A DNA stretch of 59,739 nt, from NCBI GenBank assembly GCA_947487175.1, contig CANKVM010000004.1, positions 1 to 59,739 on the forward strand, read 5' to 3'. The notes beneath the pieces were generated by a model, which was given only the letters and a program-made list of their open reading frames with translations, was not told the origin of the DNA and did no database searches. The DNA is from Flavobacteriales bacterium. GTDB taxonomy: Bacteria > Bacteroidota > Bacteroidia > NS11-12g > UBA955. Both the position numbers and the translations under genes were made by a program. Shown one piece after another: positions 2,446 to 51,156 of the stretch (position 1 is the stretch's first letter; each line of letters begins with the position of its first letter).

Positions 2446-2841
2446 ATGTTCAAAAAACAAACTATAATCCCCGCAGTTCTGTGGGGATTTTTTATTTTAT
2501 ACCTCACCCTGAAACCCAAATCAGCTGATGATTCTCATTTTCCTGCTTGGTTAAGTGAGTTGCACCCCGACAAAATTGCGCATTTTGTTTTTTGGGGATT
2601 ATGGTACGTGATTTATCATACAACCTATCTGATATATATTCCCAGTAACAATGATTCAACGATTAAACGCAATAGGCAGCGCATATTTGTTGCTGTGGCC
2701 ATTATCGTTGGTGGAATGATTGAATTATTGCAATTGAAATTAAACTGGGGCAGAAGTGCCGAATGGCTAGATCTTATTGCCGATGGATCGGGTGTATTTT
2801 CGGCATTCCTATTTTTTAAACGGAGAGATAATTCAGTTTGA
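2446..2841 (+). CDS. VanZ family protein
   Basis: 131 aa, multiple TM segments, PDKIAHFVFWGLW and EWLDLIADGSG VanZ-like signature. Confidence 0.75.
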   Translation: MFKKQTIIPAVLWGFFILYLTLKPKSADDSHFPAWLSELHPDKIAHFVFWGLWYVIYHTTYLIYIPSNNDSTIKRNRQRIFVAVAIIVGGMIELLQLKLNWGRSAEWLDLIADGSGVFSAFLFFKRRDNSV

Positions 2842-2881
2842 TTATTTTTAGATTAGTTGATTCAACTTATAAAAACACCAT

Positions 2882-2912
2882 AAAAAAAACGCCTTTTAAA
2901 GGCGTTTTTTTT
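2882..2912. terminator. bidirectional intrinsic terminator
   Basis: aaaaaacgcctttt/aaaggcgtttttttt dyad between VanZ (+) and tRNA-Cys (-). Confidence 0.75.
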
Positions 2913-2921
2913 ATGGTAATG

Positions 2922-2992
2922 AGGTCGGAAGCGGATTCGAACCGCTGTGAAGGGTTTTGCAGACCCGTGCCTAGCCGCTCGGCCATCCGACC
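2922..2992 (-). tRNA. tRNA-Cys (GCA)
   Basis: Reverse complement folds with acceptor GGTCGGA/TCCGACC, anticodon loop ggtctGCAaaacc, T-arm GCGGTTCGAATCCGC and U73 discriminator. Confidence 0.93.
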
Positions 2993-3070
2993 TTTTAAGG
3001 GCTGCAAATATAAGTGTTTAAATTTGTTTTGGCAAACAAAATGCTCAAAAATAATTGCAAAATAGAACGG

Positions 3071-3748
3071 TTATTTTCTTACTATTTCACCATCAGCCAT
3101 TTCAATGATGCGGTCTGTTTTTGAGGCAAAATCAGGATCATGGGTTACAATTAATAACGATGTATTAAATTCTTTGGTAAGTTGTTTGAATATATCAAAA
3201 ACCAACTGGGCATTCTTTGAATCCAAATTCCCCGTTGGTTCGTCACCCATTATAATACTTGGATTGTTAATGAGAGCCCTTGCAATGGCAACACGCTGTT
3301 TTTGTCCCCCAGAAATCCGAGAAGCCATTTTCAATGACTGATCTTCGATATCCAATAACTTTAGTTTTTGAATTGCGTCAGATTCTATTTCTTCCCTCGA
3401 TTTTCTTCCCAATTTCAATGCAGGCATCATCACATTTTCAAGAACTGAAAATTCAGGTAATAAATAATGAAATTGAAATACAAATCCTATATGTTCATTT
3501 CGAATAACAGCCAATTCATTGGACGTTAATCCACTTAACAATTCGTTTTTTAAATAAATTTCACCGGTATAATCAGTGTCCATCGTACTTAAAATGTACA
3601 ACAATGTACTTTTACCACAACCTGATTTTCCCATAATTGAAACAAATTCACCCTGGTTCATTTCAAGTGAAATATTTTTAAGAACCTGAATATCCACTGG
3701 GTCGTGGAAATGCTTGTTTACATTGTTAACTTTTATCAGTGGATCCAT
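3071..3748 (-). CDS. ABC transporter ATP-binding protein (LolD/MacB-like)
   Basis: Walker A GKSGCGKST, signature ISGGQKQRVAIARAL, Walker B IIMGDEPTGNLD. Confidence 0.9.
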   Translation of the reverse strand: MDPLIKVNNVNKHFHDPVDIQVLKNISLEMNQGEFVSIMGKSGCGKSTLLYILSTMDTDYTGEIYLKNELLSGLTSNELAVIRNEHIGFVFQFHYLLPEFSVLENVMMPALKLGRKSREEIESDAIQKLKLLDIEDQSLKMASRISGGQKQRVAIARALINNPSIIMGDEPTGNLDSKNAQLVFDIFKQLTKEFNTSLLIVTHDPDFASKTDRIIEMADGEIVRK

Positions 3749-3749
3749 C

Positions 3750-5009
3750 TTATTGTCCTCTTAAAATTTCAACTGGATCTATTTTACTTGCTTTTTTAGC
3801 GGGTAAGAAACCTGCAAAAAAGGTGGTAATCAATGCAAAAATTGCTCCTATTACATAATACGAACCATCAAAATTCACCGGAAAGGTTTTTACTGTTGGA
3901 ATGGCCTGTGTTTCAAATGGTGAAATGCTAATTAAATACGAAACCCCTAATCCGAGCAACAAACCCAAACTTCCCCCTACAATACCAATTAAAAGTGCTT
4001 CATAAATAAAAATACGCATCACATCGCCTCCAGAAAAACCAGTGGCTTTTAAAATGGCAATGTCATTCATTTTTTCATAAATCATCATGTTTAAAATATT
4101 ATAAATGCCAAAACCTGCAACAATTAATAGGGTAATAGAAACTGCATAAGTAATTAAATTTCTAATACTTGTTCCCGTTTCGAATTGTGCATTTGCCGTT
4201 TTAATATCTACTGCATTAATTTTATTATTATGAACGATTTCGTCGGTCATTGGTTTGGCTTGCTCAATATCAAAAAGTTTCACACTGATATCAGTCACAT
4301 AATTACTAGTTTCTCCGGCTACTTTTTGAGCGGTTTTGATGTTGGTATAACTTTGCAGTTTATCGATATCTGCCAATCCACTTTGGAAAAATCCCACTAT
4401 CTTTAATCTAACAATTCCCCCAGACGGTGTAACCATTGGCACGTAATCGCCTTTATGCAATGATAATTTTTGAGCTATTCCGATACCTAAAATCACCCCA
4501 TTGTCGGTGCTCTTTAATTCTAAAGGACTGCCATTCACAATGTATTGTTGGAAGTTATACAATCTAGTTTCTTCAATTACATCAATGCCAATTAGATTTC
4601 CATTCAATAAAACGCTTCCCGATTGGTAAAACACCCTTGTTGAAACTTGCGGTGTAACTCCTTTTACTCTGTTGTCGGCTTTCAGCGCATTGATTATTCC
4701 TTTGTTATTTAAAATACTCGCTTGGCTTTTTTTAGGTTTAACAGAATGAATTACATTCATGCTATTTTTATACTGATCAGATAATTCTATGGGTTGCTCC
4801 TTGCTTGCTTGAACTTCATTGTAAATCCGAATATGGGGAGTTCTATTTAAAATTAATCCATCTAATAAACCATTTAAGCCTGTCATGAAACTCACCAATA
4901 TAATAAATGTTCCAATTCCAAATGTTACGCCCAAAGCGGCAATTGAAGACTGTTTCTTCCTTGCCCATAAATGGGTTTTGGCAATTTCAAACAAAAGAGA
5001 TTTGGCCAT
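3750..5009 (-). CDS. ABC transporter permease (FtsX/LolC/MacB superfamily)
   Basis: TM + MacB_PCD-like periplasmic domain + three C-terminal TMs; adjacent to ATPase. Confidence 0.88.
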   Translation of the reverse strand: MAKSLLFEIAKTHLWARKKQSSIAALGVTFGIGTFIILVSFMTGLNGLLDGLILNRTPHIRIYNEVQASKEQPIELSDQYKNSMNVIHSVKPKKSQASILNNKGIINALKADNRVKGVTPQVSTRVFYQSGSVLLNGNLIGIDVIEETRLYNFQQYIVNGSPLELKSTDNGVILGIGIAQKLSLHKGDYVPMVTPSGGIVRLKIVGFFQSGLADIDKLQSYTNIKTAQKVAGETSNYVTDISVKLFDIEQAKPMTDEIVHNNKINAVDIKTANAQFETGTSIRNLITYAVSITLLIVAGFGIYNILNMMIYEKMNDIAILKATGFSGGDVMRIFIYEALLIGIVGGSLGLLLGLGVSYLISISPFETQAIPTVKTFPVNFDGSYYVIGAIFALITTFFAGFLPAKKASKIDPVEILRGQ

Positions 5010-5010
5010 T

Positions 5011-6078
5011 TTAGGGTTTCATTAAAACGGTGTTCTTGTCTATTCCTTTGGTGATTTCAACAAAATTGAAATTTCGTAATCCTGTTTCAACTTTTAACTT
5101 GCCACTTTTGGTAATTACGTACTTTTCTTCAACCAAATAGGATAGGGGAATAACCAATGCGTTGCTTTTTGTATAGGTAATGATGTTTGCTTCGGCAGTT
5201 AACCCTGGATAAAGAGTTGGCATTTCTTGATTGAATTTGCCTTCAATTTTAAAGGATTGAGATTTGGCATCTAACGCAGGATATATCTTGGATACTACCG
5301 CATCAAATGTTTTTTTGTACGCCTCTAACTTTACAATGATTTTTTGTCCAACTTTGATTTTGGAAATATCTGACTCATCAATGTCCATTTCTAAAATAAA
5401 CTGTTTATCGTTTCCAATGATAGCAAATTCTTGTTGAGGAGATACCATTTCTCCAATCTTATAAGGCAATAAATAGATTTTACCTTCAATGTAACTGGTT
5501 ATGGTAAAATCGGCATTGTTTTTTCTCGAAATTTCTAAATTATTTTTAGCCTGCTCTTTGGTTCTTGATACTATGTTTTTCTGAGAATTAAGCCTCTCAA
5601 CAATTCCTGCATATGCATTTTTGCTTGTTTCATATTTCAATGTGAACGCATCTAATTGGCTTTTGGTGCCTATGTCGTTTTTAAATAATCTCAATTGTTT
5701 GAAATAAGTAATTGAATCAAAAATCAATTGTTTGTGTGCGTTTTTAGACTGAAAAACAAGTTCTTGCAATTGACTTTCATTGTCGTTTGTAATTTGCAAT
5801 GCCATTTCAGCATTTTTTACCGATAATTCAGGAGAGAAGTTTTCAAGTTGCGCAATAGGTTGTCCTGCTTTTACCAAATCTCCTTCAGAAACAAAGTAAT
5901 TTAACAATTTACCACCTATACTCACTTTTTGGCTGTATTGCTGATATGCTTTAATCTTAGCGCTTGCGTATACCGATTCTACAATTTCTTGATTTGAGGG
6001 ACTTAACGTTTCTCCTTTTTTTCCGCAACCTAAAGCCAATAATAAGGGGAAAAGGATTAAGTGTAATCTGTGTTTCAT
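5011..6078 (-). CDS. efflux periplasmic adaptor subunit (HlyD/MFP family lipoprotein)
   Basis: Lipobox LALGCGKKG, coiled coil and barrel-sandwich segments; upstream of permease. ATG at 6078 preferred over the ORF-track TTG at 6087. Confidence 0.85.
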   Translation of the reverse strand: MKHRLHLILFPLLLALGCGKKGETLSPSNQEIVESVYASAKIKAYQQYSQKVSIGGKLLNYFVSEGDLVKAGQPIAQLENFSPELSVKNAEMALQITNDNESQLQELVFQSKNAHKQLIFDSITYFKQLRLFKNDIGTKSQLDAFTLKYETSKNAYAGIVERLNSQKNIVSRTKEQAKNNLEISRKNNADFTITSYIEGKIYLLPYKIGEMVSPQQEFAIIGNDKQFILEMDIDESDISKIKVGQKIIVKLEAYKKTFDAVVSKIYPALDAKSQSFKIEGKFNQEMPTLYPGLTAEANIITYTKSNALVIPLSYLVEEKYVITKSGKLKVETGLRNFNFVEITKGIDKNTVLMKP

Positions 6079-6124
6079 GATTTGCAAATTAAGTTTGTTT
6101 TTAATGAATAGAATATGATATGTA

Positions 6125-7889: not shown

Positions 7890-8336
7890 ATGAAGAAAAT
7901 AATTTCAATTTTGGTAGTGATTGCAGTTGCTGGAGGTGCAATTGGATTTTATTTGTGGAATAAGCCATCTGAATATGTAAGCGATGGTAAACCTGATTTT
8001 ACAATATCTTTGACTGAGTTAACGAATGATGGTGAAAATTTAACGGATTCAATTTTTGGTACTAAATATGTAGGGAAAGCTATACAATTTGAGGCAGAAG
8101 TTGAAAGTGTAATTGATAATAAGGGTTCAAAAACTTTAACATTGAAAACGAATCAAGATGGTATGGTTGTAAATGCTGGATTTCATGAAAGTATTGCCGA
8201 CAAACTTTCAAAGATTGTAGCTGGTGACAAAGTGAAATTGCAATGTGATTGCAGTGGCGTTACCAAACCGGAATCTGAAGATGATTTGTTGTCTGAAATT
8301 GAAATCAATTTAACACGTTGTAATTTAATAAAATAA
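7890..8336 (+). CDS. OB-fold (tRNA_anti-like) membrane-anchored protein
   Basis: N-terminal TM/signal; IQFEAEVESVIDNKGSKTLTLKTN...VNAGF...GDKVKLQCDCSG pattern typical of the Bacteroidota tRNA_anti-like family. Confidence 0.65.
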   Translation: MKKIISILVVIAVAGGAIGFYLWNKPSEYVSDGKPDFTISLTELTNDGENLTDSIFGTKYVGKAIQFEAEVESVIDNKGSKTLTLKTNQDGMVVNAGFHESIADKLSKIVAGDKVKLQCDCSGVTKPESEDDLLSEIEINLTRCNLIK

Positions 8337-8341
8337 ATATC

Positions 8342-8896
8342 ATGAAAAAAAATATCCTATTCTCTCTTTCTGTAATGTTGTTTGGACTTTCCAATGCACA
8401 AGTTTACAGCACTTCAACAGGTACAGTTTCTTTTGTTAGCAAAACCAAATTTGAAGAGTTTTCGGCAGATAATAAACAAACCCAAGCTGCAATTTCTACT
8501 GATAAAGGAACTGTTCAATTTAAATTGCCAATCAATTCTTTTCAATTTGAAAAAGATTTAATGCAAACTCATTTCCAAGAGAATTATATGGAATCAGCAA
8601 CTTTCCCTACCAGTATTTTTAAAGGGAAAATCAAGAATTTGGCTGATGTTAAATTCACAGTTGATGGAACATATGAAGTAGAGGTTCCTGGTACTTTAGA
8701 AATGCATGGTGTAACCAAAGAAATTGAGGTTAAAGGTAACGTAGTTGTGAAAGGAAAGACAATTACTTTGTTGTCTGATTTTTCTATTGAATGCTCTGAT
8801 TATGGTATCAAAATACCAAAAAATAGTGTTAGTCAGGTTTCTAATACCATCAATATCAAAGTTGATTGCGCTCTTGCACCCAAAAAGAAAAAATAA
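8342..8896 (+). CDS. YceI family protein
   Basis: Signal peptide; FKLPINSFQFEKDLMQTHFQENYMESATFPTSIFKG and GTLEMHGVTKEIEVKG YceI signatures. Confidence 0.88.
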   Translation: MKKNILFSLSVMLFGLSNAQVYSTSTGTVSFVSKTKFEEFSADNKQTQAAISTDKGTVQFKLPINSFQFEKDLMQTHFQENYMESATFPTSIFKGKIKNLADVKFTVDGTYEVEVPGTLEMHGVTKEIEVKGNVVVKGKTITLLSDFSIECSDYGIKIPKNSVSQVSNTINIKVDCALAPKKKK

Positions 8897-8898
8897 TT

Positions 8899-9555
8899 AT
8901 GCGCAAGATTAAAATCATATTTTTTTCTTCCCTTTTGTGTGCTTCTTTTCTTTTTGTTGGTGAGTCTTGCAAGCATGAAAATCTGCCTGTTTTAAATGCC
9001 GATAGTATCTGTTTTGAAAGGGATATTCTTCCCATCTTTGTGTCAAATTGTGCTATGTCTGGTTGCCATGATGCAATAACTAGCGCAGAAGGATATAATA
9101 TATCTAATTATTCATCAATTATGAAAGAAGGAATCAAGCCAGGTGATCCTGCAGATTCAGAAATATGGGAGGTGATTGATGATGGTTCTATGCCTCCCAA
9201 TGGTAAATTAACGTCTTTACAAAGATCTTATATCAAAACTTGGATTGCTGCGGGTGCTAAAAATGGAATCAACTGTTTTGTTAGCTGTGATTCAAATGTA
9301 ATTACATACAGTGCTGGAGTTTCGAAAATAATGTCTCAATGTACAGGTTGCCATTCTGGTACAAATCCTTCAGGAAAAATTGATTTATCTAACGCCGCAA
9401 GTGTTAAATCTGTAGCACTTTCGGGTAAGTTATTGGGCTCAGTTAAGCAATCTTCGGGATTTGTTTCAATGCCCCCTTATGGCAGTCCAAAATTAACTGA
9501 TTGTCAGATTACGCAAATCCAAAAATGGATAAATAATGGCTGTAAAAACGATTAA
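8899..9555 (+). CDS. c-type cytochrome domain lipoprotein, two predicted heme sites (CX4CH and CXXCH)
   Basis: ATG at 8899; lipobox VGESC; CAMSGCH and CTGCH; MPP segments downstream of each. Confidence 0.75.
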   Translation: MRKIKIIFFSSLLCASFLFVGESCKHENLPVLNADSICFERDILPIFVSNCAMSGCHDAITSAEGYNISNYSSIMKEGIKPGDPADSEIWEVIDDGSMPPNGKLTSLQRSYIKTWIAAGAKNGINCFVSCDSNVITYSAGVSKIMSQCTGCHSGTNPSGKIDLSNAASVKSVALSGKLLGSVKQSSGFVSMPPYGSPKLTDCQITQIQKWINNGCKND

Positions 9556-9901
9556 ATTTAGCTTCTTCATATTGTTAATAGCCGCATCTATAGAAAGTTG
9601 CTATTACGATAAAAAAGAGGATCTATACGTCTCAACCTGTAATACCGCGGGAATGACGTATACAAAGGATATTGTAAGTTTGGTAAACAGTTCTTGCGCC
9701 GGTTGCCATAGCGGGAATTCTCCATCTGCGGGAATTGCTTTAAGCACTTATGCCGAAGTGAAAGACTGTGTTGTAAACGGTAAATTTATTGGCTCTGTGA
9801 AGCAAGATGGTACCGCCTCGGCAATGCCAAAAGGCGGAAAATGGAGCTCTTGTAATGTATCAAAATTAGAAGCTTGGAAAGCAGCAGGCTGTCCTTTATA
9901 A
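9536..9901 (+). CDS. c-type cytochrome domain lipoprotein, one predicted heme site
   Basis: Lipobox SIESC; CAGCHSG; AMPKGG distal segment; similar to C-terminal half of the upstream protein. Confidence 0.72.
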   Translation: MAVKTIKFSFFILLIAASIESCYYDKKEDLYVSTCNTAGMTYTKDIVSLVNSSCAGCHSGNSPSAGIALSTYAEVKDCVVNGKFIGSVKQDGTASAMPKGGKWSSCNVSKLEAWKAAGCPL

Positions 9902-10770
9902 TGAAAAATTTATTCTTATTAGGATTTGCTGTATTGTTCATGCAAAATGCAAAAGCGCAGGATAGTATTATCATGGTTACACTTGTTGATCCAGGTGAAT
10001 ATGCGCCAGTTTTAGATTTAAATATCAAAGCAAAAAGTTTGCGCATTATTAACGGCCACTCATCGGCAGTATTGCCAAAAGGGTCATTTGAAATTACCAT
10101 TGCGCATAGATTTGGCCAAGTTTCAACTGGAATTGATGATTTGTGGGGTGTAGACAACATGAATAGCAACAGAATTGGTTTTGACTATGGAGCAACCAAA
10201 AAAATCACTTTGGGAGCGGGAAGAAGTAGCTACTACAAAACTTTCAATGGATATGTGAAATATGCCTTGATTGGTAATTATTCTAGTAAGTTTAATTTGA
10301 CCTACTTAGCAGATATGGCGGTAGATGGCAGAGCAACTAGCGATTGGAATTTGAATCCATTCTACTTTACACACCGTTTCAATTACACGCATCAACTCAT
10401 TGTATCATATACCTTTCATCCAAATTTGTTAGTTGGGTTTACCCCAACTTTGGTACACATGAATATGGTTGATGGAATTAATATGAACAATGATATTCCG
10501 GTTATGGGCGGTTACGTTCGATTGGCATTAAACAAACACGTAAGTTTTACGTTAGAAGCAAATAAAATTACTTCTTTTGGAATGGATTTGCCTGTAAAAT
10601 CTAATCCAACTGTTGGATTGGGATTTGAATTTTTCACGCCAAAGCATGCATTTCATATTAGTTTAAGTAATTCAAGGATGTTAAATGAACCATATTACAT
10701 GGTAACAGATCAAGTTCCTAATACGTTTGGTCAATTTTGTTTGGGTTTTAATATTGTAAGAAGATGGTAA
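9901..10770 (+). CDS. DUF5777-like beta-barrel protein
   Basis: ATG at 9901; signal peptide; FEITIAHRFG...LWGVDNMNSNRIGFDYGATKKITLGAGRS pattern; C-terminal Trp. Confidence 0.75.
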   Translation: MKNLFLLGFAVLFMQNAKAQDSIIMVTLVDPGEYAPVLDLNIKAKSLRIINGHSSAVLPKGSFEITIAHRFGQVSTGIDDLWGVDNMNSNRIGFDYGATKKITLGAGRSSYYKTFNGYVKYALIGNYSSKFNLTYLADMAVDGRATSDWNLNPFYFTHRFNYTHQLIVSYTFHPNLLVGFTPTLVHMNMVDGINMNNDIPVMGGYVRLALNKHVSFTLEANKITSFGMDLPVKSNPTVGLGFEFFTPKHAFHISLSNSRMLNEPYYMVTDQVPNTFGQFCLGFNIVRRW

Positions 10771-11645
10771 GATTCAATTTAAAATGGACTTTTGTGTTTG
10801 CATTGTGTTTGATAAGTTTAAAATTATCTGCACAAGACGACGATTTGTTGGGCGATGAGCCTTCTGTTCACATCGATAATAGAGTGAATTTTGCTTTTAA
10901 GACCACTAAAGTAATCAACCTGCAAAGTTTGGAATTGTTGGGACCAGGAGTTTTTGATTTTAAAATGAATCACAGATTCGGGGCTTTTAATAACGGACCC
11001 ATCAATGCTTTTGGTTTAGATTTAGCTACCATCCGTTTTGGCGGAGAATACGGAATCAACAGAAATTTAATGGCTGGTATAGGCAGAAGTAATGTGTCTG
11101 GAAGTAAAAATGTAGATGGTTATTTGAAGTATCGCGTTTTTCAGCAAACCTCAGACAATAAAAAACCTTTTTCATTGCTCCTGTTTTATGGAATTGAAAA
11201 TAAAATTGGGCCGTCTTATTCCGATGTGAATTCTTCGAAAAGATTGACAAGTGTAGCTCAAGTTATTATTGGTAGAAAATTCAATGAAACATTCAGTGCT
11301 CAGTTTTCGCCAAGTTATGTAATGGGCTACAATAGTTCTAATGCTGCTTTCAATCAAGTTGCTCTTGGTTTGGGTATGAGAATGAAACTAACTATGAGAA
11401 CTACTTTAAATGCTGAGTGGATTCCAATTTTAACAAACAAAGGATTGGTTAGAAATAGCGCATCTGTAGGGTTTGATATTGAAACAGGTGGACACGTTTT
11501 TCAAGTGCATTTCACAAATAGCAGTGGCCTAAACGAAGCTCAGTTTATTAGCAACACCAACGATACTTGGGATACATACGGAATTCGTTTTGGATTTAAT
11601 CTATCAAGGGTATTCACAATTGTGAGTCCCTCAAAATTTAAATAA
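10764..11645 (+). CDS. DUF5777-like beta-barrel protein
   Basis: Paralogue of preceding gene: FKMNHRFGAFNNG...IRFGGEYGINRNLMAGIGRS. Confidence 0.72.
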   Translation: MVRFNLKWTFVFALCLISLKLSAQDDDLLGDEPSVHIDNRVNFAFKTTKVINLQSLELLGPGVFDFKMNHRFGAFNNGPINAFGLDLATIRFGGEYGINRNLMAGIGRSNVSGSKNVDGYLKYRVFQQTSDNKKPFSLLLFYGIENKIGPSYSDVNSSKRLTSVAQVIIGRKFNETFSAQFSPSYVMGYNSSNAAFNQVALGLGMRMKLTMRTTLNAEWIPILTNKGLVRNSASVGFDIETGGHVFQVHFTNSSGLNEAQFISNTNDTWDTYGIRFGFNLSRVFTIVSPSKFK

Positions 11646-11681: not shown

Positions 11682-11714
11682 AAAATGCCCTTGAAGATCT
11701 TTCAAGGGCATTTT
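11682..11714. terminator. bidirectional intrinsic terminator
   Basis: 14-bp stem aaaatgcccttgaa/ttcaagggcatttt, loop gatct, between convergent genes. Confidence 0.8.
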
Positions 11715-49415: not shown

Positions 49416-50315
49416 ATGGAAGTGAAAATCCTTCAGAAAACAAAATATATATTGTCTGCAGTTTTAATTGCTGCAGTTTCTGTTTTTGCGGGATGTACTA
49501 AAATTCATGACGTACAAAATGAAGATTTGAATTCTCAAATTACATTCAATAACAATATCAACGATTTTCTCTCTATTTATGAAATTGTAGAGCATATTAA
49601 TTCAACCAAATCAAGTCAAGGACTTGTTGGGATCTATTTGGATTCCATTGAAAAGCAAGTAAATTGTAAAATAATCATCATTGATTCAATCACATCCGAC
49701 GGCGATGGTTATGCTTATCGTATTCAATTTCCAGAGTATAAAAAGAATTTCAATCAATCGGCGTTAAATTACGATGGTAAAGCAAGATTTGGTTCTGTTT
49801 TGGTTGAAGTGAGTCAAAATTACAGAGAGTTAAATACAACTACCACCATCAGTATTGGCGATACCAACGCATTTTATATTGGGTCCGTTAATAATCCAAT
49901 CAAGAAATTCACGGGTAAAATTAATCTATATAGAAGTTTCCAGGCAGTACTCTCAATGACATTTAATCAAGTGAAAATGGTTACTGATGTTGATTCGATG
50001 GTTTTTAGTGGACAATTGGCCATTCAATGGTCATCAGGGGAAAGCTCAGATGGGTTATTCAATGATGTAATTAATTACAATGGCGATGGCACATTTTCTT
50101 ATAATAATTTACCTAATACATCTTGGAAAACCAGTTTGGCACTCGTGAAAAATATTGAAAATGGATGTTCTGCAAACATTGTAAAAGGAATTTTACAAAT
50201 TGACAATAACAATTTACGTTATAGAATTGACTTCGATCCTTTCAACAATATGTCTTGCGATAATATTGCTAAAATTTACAGTGCCGGAAAAGAATATGAA
50301 GTTCGCATTCAATAA
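49416..50315 (+). CDS. hypothetical lipoprotein
   Basis: Lipobox VFAGCTKI; C-terminal RIDFDPFNNMSCDNIAKIYSAGKEYEVRIQ. Confidence 0.6.
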   Translation: MEVKILQKTKYILSAVLIAAVSVFAGCTKIHDVQNEDLNSQITFNNNINDFLSIYEIVEHINSTKSSQGLVGIYLDSIEKQVNCKIIIIDSITSDGDGYAYRIQFPEYKKNFNQSALNYDGKARFGSVLVEVSQNYRELNTTTTISIGDTNAFYIGSVNNPIKKFTGKINLYRSFQAVLSMTFNQVKMVTDVDSMVFSGQLAIQWSSGESSDGLFNDVINYNGDGTFSYNNLPNTSWKTSLALVKNIENGCSANIVKGILQIDNNNLRYRIDFDPFNNMSCDNIAKIYSAGKEYEVRIQ

Positions 50316-51156
50316 ATTCATACTTCTTTTATTTACAGCTGTATTTGTTATAATGACCAGCGTAAGCTGTATCAAAGATCCGTTAACATCAAATGTTAAA
50401 ATTATTGAAAATGTGGGCAAAATTGCCACGGTTCAAATGCAAATGTATACTTTACTTGATCATTTAAGGAATGGTTTTGATGCTGATATTTTGCCATATG
50501 GAGTAAAAAAGCAATTGATAGATAGCAATTTAAATGAACATTCGAAAACATATTTGATCGATTTTGGGAAGGGGTTATTATGCGGCGATTACATTACTAG
50601 AAGAGGATTACTTACCTATAAACATGTGGTTGATTCTACAAGGTACATCGATAGTGTAATTTGTGTCATGCCATATGTAAATGACAGTTTTGGTTGCCTC
50701 ACCGGAAATGGTGCCATCCATATTTATGGGAAATATTGTATCGTAAAAACGTCTCCTGTTACAGATAATGTATTTTCTAGTTTGACAATTTGGAAGGATC
50801 CTTCCCTGTTGATTACTTCAGATCAGAGTGTTGGCGTAAAGCGTTTATTGACAGAACCTACCAAAATTTCATCAAAAGATGGATTTCAATTCAACGGTGG
50901 ATTGGATCAAGTATTAATTAGAGAATCTTTTTCAATACTTCATCATGTGAATGTAACTGTGTCTAAATGTGAAAAATTAGCAAATTCATCTAATTTCCCG
51001 CAAGTGGGTAAATTAACATGCACAAAATCGGACTTTTCTAATAGTTCGGAACCATTAGAAGTAACCATAGACTTTGATCCCATGAGCGATGCAAAGCAAG
51101 ATAATGTTGCAAAAGCTACTTCTGGGAATTTAGAATGGTTTTTCCAAATTCAGTAA
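50296..51156 (+). CDS. hypothetical lipoprotein, divergent paralogue of the preceding gene
   Basis: ATG 50296; lipobox TSVSCIKD; C-terminal TIDFDPMSDAKQDNVAKATSGNLEWFFQIQ. Confidence 0.6.
   Translation: MKFAFNKFILLLFTAVFVIMTSVSCIKDPLTSNVKIIENVGKIATVQMQMYTLLDHLRNGFDADILPYGVKKQLIDSNLNEHSKTYLIDFGKGLLCGDYITRRGLLTYKHVVDSTRYIDSVICVMPYVNDSFGCLTGNGAIHIYGKYCIVKTSPVTDNVFSSLTIWKDPSLLITSDQSVGVKRLLTEPTKISSKDGFQFNGGLDQVLIRESFSILHHVNVTVSKCEKLANSSNFPQVGKLTCTKSDFSNSSEPLEVTIDFDPMSDAKQDNVAKATSGNLEWFFQIQ

Follow-up and report, generated by a model that had tools for sequence, protein, structure and literature searches.

The ligands of YceI lipocalins are octaprenyl compounds or ubiquinone-8. One of these proteins, BcnA of Burkholderia, acts together with its linked cytochrome b561, LcoA, to shield the envelope from lipid peroxyl radicals, and re-reduction of the bound quinone has been proposed (PMC9113575). 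The Cellvibrio protein Cbp2D joins a YceI domain and c-type cytochrome domains in one chain, and one of these cytochromes is an electron donor (PMC8981238). The known porin-cytochrome conduits of the outer membrane consist of a porin paired with a multiheme cytochrome that is embedded in it. Here, we analysed a 59,739-nucleotide stretch of DNA from a Flavobacteriales bacterium (the window), which contains adjacent genes for an OB-fold protein, a YceI lipocalin, two c-type cytochrome lipoproteins (CYT1 and CYT2), and two beta-barrels of the family DUF5777 (DUFA and DUFB). It is highly probable that the locus encodes an outer-membrane redox module of a type that is widespread in Bacteroidota.

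Comparison with described systems

The locus resembles that of BcnA and LcoA in that a YceI lipocalin is encoded beside a cytochrome, and in its predicted site, the periplasm and outer membrane. However, the cytochrome of the Burkholderia system is an inner-membrane b561, whereas in the window there are c-type lipoproteins, accompanied by two outer-membrane barrels and an OB protein. Cbp2D from Cellvibrio japonicus, a multidomain redox protein (CBM2-X158/YceI-cytochrome c), similarly couples a YceI domain (X158, which binds ubiquinone-8) to small mono-heme cytochrome c domains, but the window has separate genes, lipoprotein cytochromes, barrels, and no carbohydrate-binding module. In the MtrAB and OmbB-OmaB-OmcB systems, the gene for an outer-membrane barrel also adjoins genes for c-type cytochromes. 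Those systems have eight or more hemes, compared with one to three here, and the barrel of the window is small and 12-stranded, with no sequence relation to them found. Cyc2 shares with the locus the combination of few hemes and an outer-membrane barrel; however, the heme domain and the barrel are separate proteins in the window.

DUF5777 was not mentioned in the literature searched, and neither the search for YceI with cytochrome c in flavobacteria nor two flavobacterial transcriptomes yielded data on these genes. The conserved partnership of DUF5777, cytochromes, and YceI is apparently undescribed.

Organization of the operon

The window corresponds to contig C4 in a Bacteroidota genome of 2.4 Mb. 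The nearest public contigs belong to Bacteroidota metagenome-assembled genomes, several of them recorded as coming from lakes or ponds, and one is 97% identical across DUFB, the second barrel. The six genes span positions 7890–11645, all on the + strand, in the order OB, YceI, CYT1, CYT2, DUFA, and DUFB. With the likely ATG starts, the successive junctions measure +5, +2, −20, −1, and −7 nucleotides (nt); the likely starts of CYT1 (ATG 8899) and DUFA (ATG 9901) differ from those of the listed open reading frames (TTG 8866 and TTG 9874, respectively). An earlier sequence-based description of the window (the original prediction) had proposed six co-directional genes with short gaps or overlaps in this region, which agrees with the gaps of at most 5 nt or overlaps found here. 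By any ordinary criterion, the six genes are a single predicted operon. The features of the operon, in window coordinates and lengths in amino acids (aa), are:

7890–8336, + strand: OB-fold protein (PF12869 tRNA_anti-like family), 148 aa, N-terminal membrane anchor; assigned from Pfam and orthologues
8342–8896, + strand: YceI-family lipocalin, 184 aa, signal peptide; PF04264, E = 1.1e-16
8899–9555, + strand: CYT1, predicted di-heme c-type cytochrome lipoprotein; PSCyt1 1.1e-9 and Cytochrome_CBB3 9.1e-8, lipobox-like GESC
9049–9069, + strand: CYT1 heme site 1, CAMSGCH (CX4CH), from the sequence
9340–9354, + strand: CYT1 heme site 2, CTGCH (CXXCH), from the sequence
9536–9901, + strand: CYT2, predicted mono-heme c-type cytochrome lipoprotein, 121 aa; sub-threshold match to Cytochrome_CBB3, CXXCH
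9695–9709, + strand: CYT2 heme site, CAGCH (CXXCH), from the sequence
9901–10770, + strand: DUFA, DUF5777 outer-membrane beta-barrel with C-terminal Trp; PF19089, E = 4.2e-54
10764–11645, + strand: DUFB, DUF5777 outer-membrane beta-barrel, 12 predicted strands; PF19089, E = 5.1e-68
11682–11714, + strand: intrinsic-terminator-like hairpin at the operon end, 15-pair stem and T-rich tail

Conservation of the gene neighbourhood

Of 396 genomes sampled across Bacteroidota, 154 carry DUF5777, as do 98 of the 108 from the order of the window. We took 120 stretches that surround DUF5777 genes in 89 genomes, picked for the presence of DUF5777 only, searched their six-frame open reading frames with profiles built from the window genes, and counted neighbours located within 4 kb on the same strand. 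The 122 non-redundant DUF5777 loci obtained in this way are not independent, since many of the genomes are related, yet they represent dozens of genera. A CYT-family cytochrome was present in 102 of the 122 loci, which substantiates the conserved co-occurrence with DUF5777 in related genomes that the original prediction had called for. YceI was present in 94 loci, the OB protein in 57, and a cytochrome together with YceI in 75. The only locus with neither cytochrome nor YceI (L048) is cut by a contig end. The more distant parts of these stretches, 1.08 Mb in total, yielded one cytochrome and four YceI matches, from which about 0.5 cytochrome and 2 YceI loci would be expected by chance. The genes located 5′ of the cytochromes in some relatives, such as those for an SNF2 helicase and a T9SS-tail protein, look unrelated.

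Cytochromes CYT1 and CYT2

The combination of a CX4CH and a CXXCH site in CYT1 is the standard layout among its two-heme relatives (47 proteins). The Cytochrome_CBB3 score of CYT2 is 19 bits, below the cut-off of 27, but the assignment is supported by the intact CXXCH and by the candidate sixth ligand, a downstream Met-Pro or Met-Ala, found in 100 of 102 mono-heme relatives. A search of the PDB with the CYT2 sequence gave no match. The genome encodes cytochrome c assembly proteins (Cytochrom_C_asm). CYT1 and CYT2 are predicted to be c-type cytochromes from their heme motifs, candidate distal methionines, and the maturation system in the genome.

The two proteins had originally been described as lipoproteins with lipoboxes GESC and IESC and CXXCH-type heme sites. 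The heme motifs are conserved in relatives, but the first site of CYT1 is CX4CH, not CXXCH. Both lipoboxes of the window have an atypical Glu at position −2; however, those of close relatives are canonical, with SLGS followed by CYYD in the CYT2 relative of L033 and FIGS followed by CKHE in the CYT1 relative of L035. The mature N-terminus of CYT2, CYYD, directly follows the lipobox in 33 relatives.

Unlinked to the operon, the genome of the window also encodes a heptaheme lipoprotein (L168, 952–2943, G000:C57), which has seven CXXCH motifs and a C-terminal region that resembles TPR repeats. In L131 (10486–12864), CYT-family cytochrome lipoproteins with multiple Ig-like (He_PIG) domains are encoded downstream of the barrel.

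DUF5777 barrels

DUFA and DUFB are clear members of PF19089 (DUF5777, membrane bound beta barrel domain), which they match over the full domain with 184 and 229 bits, respectively (gathering cut-off 23.1). Pfam gives no function for the family, and a sequence search of the PDB with DUF5777 gave no match. AlphaFold models built from 11 sequences were of moderate confidence and contained 12 strands for DUFB (pLDDT 69, pTM 0.73) and about 12 for DUFA (pLDDT 63, pTM 0.68). Among the Foldseek PDB matches listed, those of DUFA included NanC, KdgM, FapF, and LpxR, those of DUFB included FapF, OmpG, and KdgM, and all were outer-membrane barrels or designed transmembrane barrels. The models and the listed matches agree with the assignment of two paralogous barrels in the original prediction; the C-terminal Trp noted there for the first occurs in DUFA only.

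Along the predicted strands, hydropathy in the family alternates, with the clearest pattern in strands 1, 2, 10, and 12. The conserved residues R48, R68, K99, R137, and R183 fall on the face predicted to be polar from this alternation. Two histidines are near-invariant (143 of 144 DUF5777 proteins) and are located on the predicted outward face of strands 1 and 11, beside strand 12 at the closure seam. Near-invariant residues on the predicted outward face of strands 11, 12, and 1 are His47, His221, Arg259, and Phe49, Phe223, and Phe255 of mature DUFB. This outward seam, with its near-invariant His, Arg, and Phe residues, could serve as a docking site, a cofactor site, or an assembly signal. The binding of a heme between the two histidines in the barrel lumen is unsupported, because the alternation places both outward, near opposite ends of the barrel. 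A single 672-aa open frame of a relative (G475:C156, 1676–3451) spans two DUF5777 matches and may encode a double barrel.

YceI and the OB-fold protein

The YceI protein matches PF04264 with 62 bits (cut-off 23.7). Its nearest solved structures include X158 (2x32, 2x34) and YceI/BcnB (5ixg), with E-values of about 0.007–0.009. It is predicted to be soluble and has no lipobox. The genome carries three YceI genes, one of which adjoins c-type lipoproteins, at the operon of the window. No match to cytochrome b561 (PF01292) was found in the genome, which leaves room for another partner of YceI.

The OB protein of the window scores 21.9 bits with PF12869, under the cut-off of 23.5. We accept the assignment because its orthologues in three equivalent operons reach 74–82 bits. 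A CxG...C motif is kept in most of its 47 relatives. A function as a CcmE-type heme chaperone was ruled out, since the His of the sequence FHES is not conserved among them.

Two modules and related operon types

In the phylogeny of the barrels, DUFA belongs to a clade with a support of 1.0 together with barrels of the same family that are encoded beside cytochromes only (L057, L061, L069, L071). The clade of DUFB, also with a support of 1.0, contains barrels encoded beside OB and YceI only (L050, L056, L060, L065, L067, L068, L070). Several of these relatives carry the two modules at separate genome positions. Together with the tree placement, this indicates that a module of two cytochromes and DUFA is nested in a module of OB, YceI, and DUFB. 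The nested order is found in the genus of the window and some relatives, and in the rest of the phylum a single operon of cytochrome, optional OB, YceI, and DUF5777 is the rule.

A third operon type, found at 11 loci, encodes an EB_dh lipoprotein, a cytochrome (often CX4CH), DUF5777, a cytochrome c, a Tat-signal FeS protein, and NrfD. In the tree, 12 of the 13 members of one clade with a support of 1.0 are barrels of this type; the clade is almost exclusive to it. Most of the NrfD-type loci L091, L118, L125, L130, L153, L080, L088, L102, and L120 contain EB_dh, and a conserved secreted protein of 280–310 aa is also encoded there. The NrfD-type operon resembles a complete chain from quinol to the outer membrane, without an obvious terminal reductase. 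At five loci, a di-heme CCP-like or other di-heme protein takes the place of YceI. In L153, a Cas1-like gene followed by CRISPR-array-like repeats (2734–6100) is located a few kilobases upstream of the DUF5777 operon.

Proposed function of the locus

From the computed operon layout, domain identities, heme motifs, barrel fold, phylum-wide co-occurrence, and two modules, we infer the direction of electron flow and the physiological role. CYT1 and CYT2 would be anchored in the outer membrane through their lipids, and the periplasmic YceI would carry an isoprenoid quinone, which in Bacteroidota is of the menaquinone type. The small cytochromes would exchange electrons with the YceI-bound quinone and with the periplasmic cytochrome pool. 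The two 12-stranded barrels would tether both halves of the system to the outer membrane, let in a small ligand that is probably anionic, or do both. An outer-membrane or periplasmic quinone kept reduced in this way could then neutralise lipid radicals and oxidants, a purpose that has been suggested for BcnA with LcoA. The five loci with a CCP-like or other di-heme protein instead of YceI count in favour of this explanation. We assign a probability of about 0.4 to this explanation as a whole, comprising the operon-encoded module, the exchange between cytochromes and quinone, the barrels as partners, and the protective purpose. Of its parts, electron exchange between the cytochromes and YceI-bound quinone, by analogy with the described YceI systems, has roughly even odds, and a protective rather than a respiratory purpose is put forward tentatively.

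Several observations weigh against this explanation. YceI is missing near the barrel in 27 cytochrome loci and the cytochrome is missing in 19 YceI loci; therefore, neither is required at every barrel. A respiratory rather than a protective purpose is suggested by the 11 loci with NrfD, FeS, and EB_dh proteins. COX1 was present in all 154 DUF5777-positive genomes and DUF5777 in none of the 17 COX1-negative ones, which fits an oxygen-related role, but the association is weak because the absences cluster in few families. The protective purpose is transferred from a YceI of Proteobacteria that works with another kind of cytochrome, and the explanation gives the OB protein no role.

If electrons do pass between quinone and the outer membrane, the locus would represent a low-heme outer-membrane redox system for Bacteroidota and would supply the missing redox partner of YceI proteins in bacteria without cytochrome b561. 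The function of YceI lipocalins would then become directly testable in genetically tractable flavobacteria. A broader, more speculative reading, to which we give a limited chance, treats DUF5777 as an undescribed family of 12-stranded barrels that would partner interchangeable electron modules at the outer membrane, without a multiheme wire. The modules would be YceI-quinone, c-type lipoproteins, the NrfD/FeS/EB_dh chain, and di-heme peroxidase-like proteins, and electrons would travel between the outer membrane and the quinol pool of the inner membrane.

Alternative explanations

The original prediction had drawn an analogy with porin-cytochrome conduits that move electrons across or along the outer membrane. 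Gene co-occurrence, heme motifs, cytochrome c assembly proteins, and barrel models, examined as possible refutations, did not refute that prediction, and the combination of heme lipoproteins with barrels and YceI stands. The specific analogy with conduits is weak: electron movement at or along the outer membrane is plausible, but passage across it through the barrels is unsupported. In the corresponding explanation, which we regard as unlikely, the system serves extracellular electron transfer: one of the lipoproteins would face outward on the cell, and together they would pass electrons through a DUF5777 barrel in a porin-cytochrome or split Cyc2-like arrangement. The pairing of barrel and cytochrome lipoprotein is conserved, but the loci usually contain 0–3 hemes and at most 6 (three in the operon of the window), and 12 strands leave little room for a cytochrome plug. 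No heme motif C(X2-4)CH was found in 152 DUF5777 proteins, nor an MtrB/PioB homologue (PF11854) in a search of the whole genome. The heme counts and the missing MtrB rule out a multiheme conduit at the locus, and the barrels without heme motifs rule out a Cyc2-type fusion. The mature N-termini of the CYT2 family are enriched in acidic residues at positions +2 to +8 (2.30, versus 1.30 in other lipoproteins); this loosely resembles the Bacteroidetes lipoprotein export signal (PMC5080379), but the acidic stretch lies away from the optimal C-X-K-(D/E)2 position. In the NrfD-type operons, the proteins encoded beside the barrel (EB_dh lipoprotein, cytochrome c, Tat FeS protein, and NrfD) would make a plausible chain from quinol to the outer membrane. 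DUF5777 may therefore also serve such a quinol-driven chain, which keeps an export role for electrons alive.

Slightly less likely still, the barrels could be substrate-specific porins with a basic lumen that admits an anionic solute, which is then reduced or oxidised by the cytochromes or a neighbouring enzyme. The conserved Arg and Lys residues on the predicted polar face would suit such a solute, the closest folds include the porins for sialic acid (NanC) and oligogalacturonate (KdgM), and the CCP-like or other di-heme protein adjoins the barrel in five loci. However, Foldseek similarity among small barrels is general, no catalytic enzyme is common to the family, and YceI would be left unexplained.

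It is improbable that the barrels are dedicated to outer-membrane export or assembly, flipping or anchoring a neighbouring lipoprotein in a Slam-like manner, with no electrons or solutes involved. The barrel gene is directly 3′ of a lipoprotein gene in most cytochrome-type loci, and each barrel clade keeps its own partner, cytochromes for DUFA and YceI for DUFB. Nevertheless, the immediate neighbour in most loci is the soluble YceI, which has no lipobox in the window copy; moreover, the barrel has no TPR or periplasmic domain, and the residues of its polar face are strongly conserved. Finally, a chance neighbourhood of unrelated envelope genes, for which only the generic nature of each family speaks, is refuted by the survey, in which the association is far over background in about 90 genomes.

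Other genes in the window

Two adjacent open reading frames of the window, at 49416–50315 and 50200–51156, encode secreted or lipoprotein-like products and overlap by about 115 nt as listed. Their C-termini look related, and the second frame probably starts further downstream.

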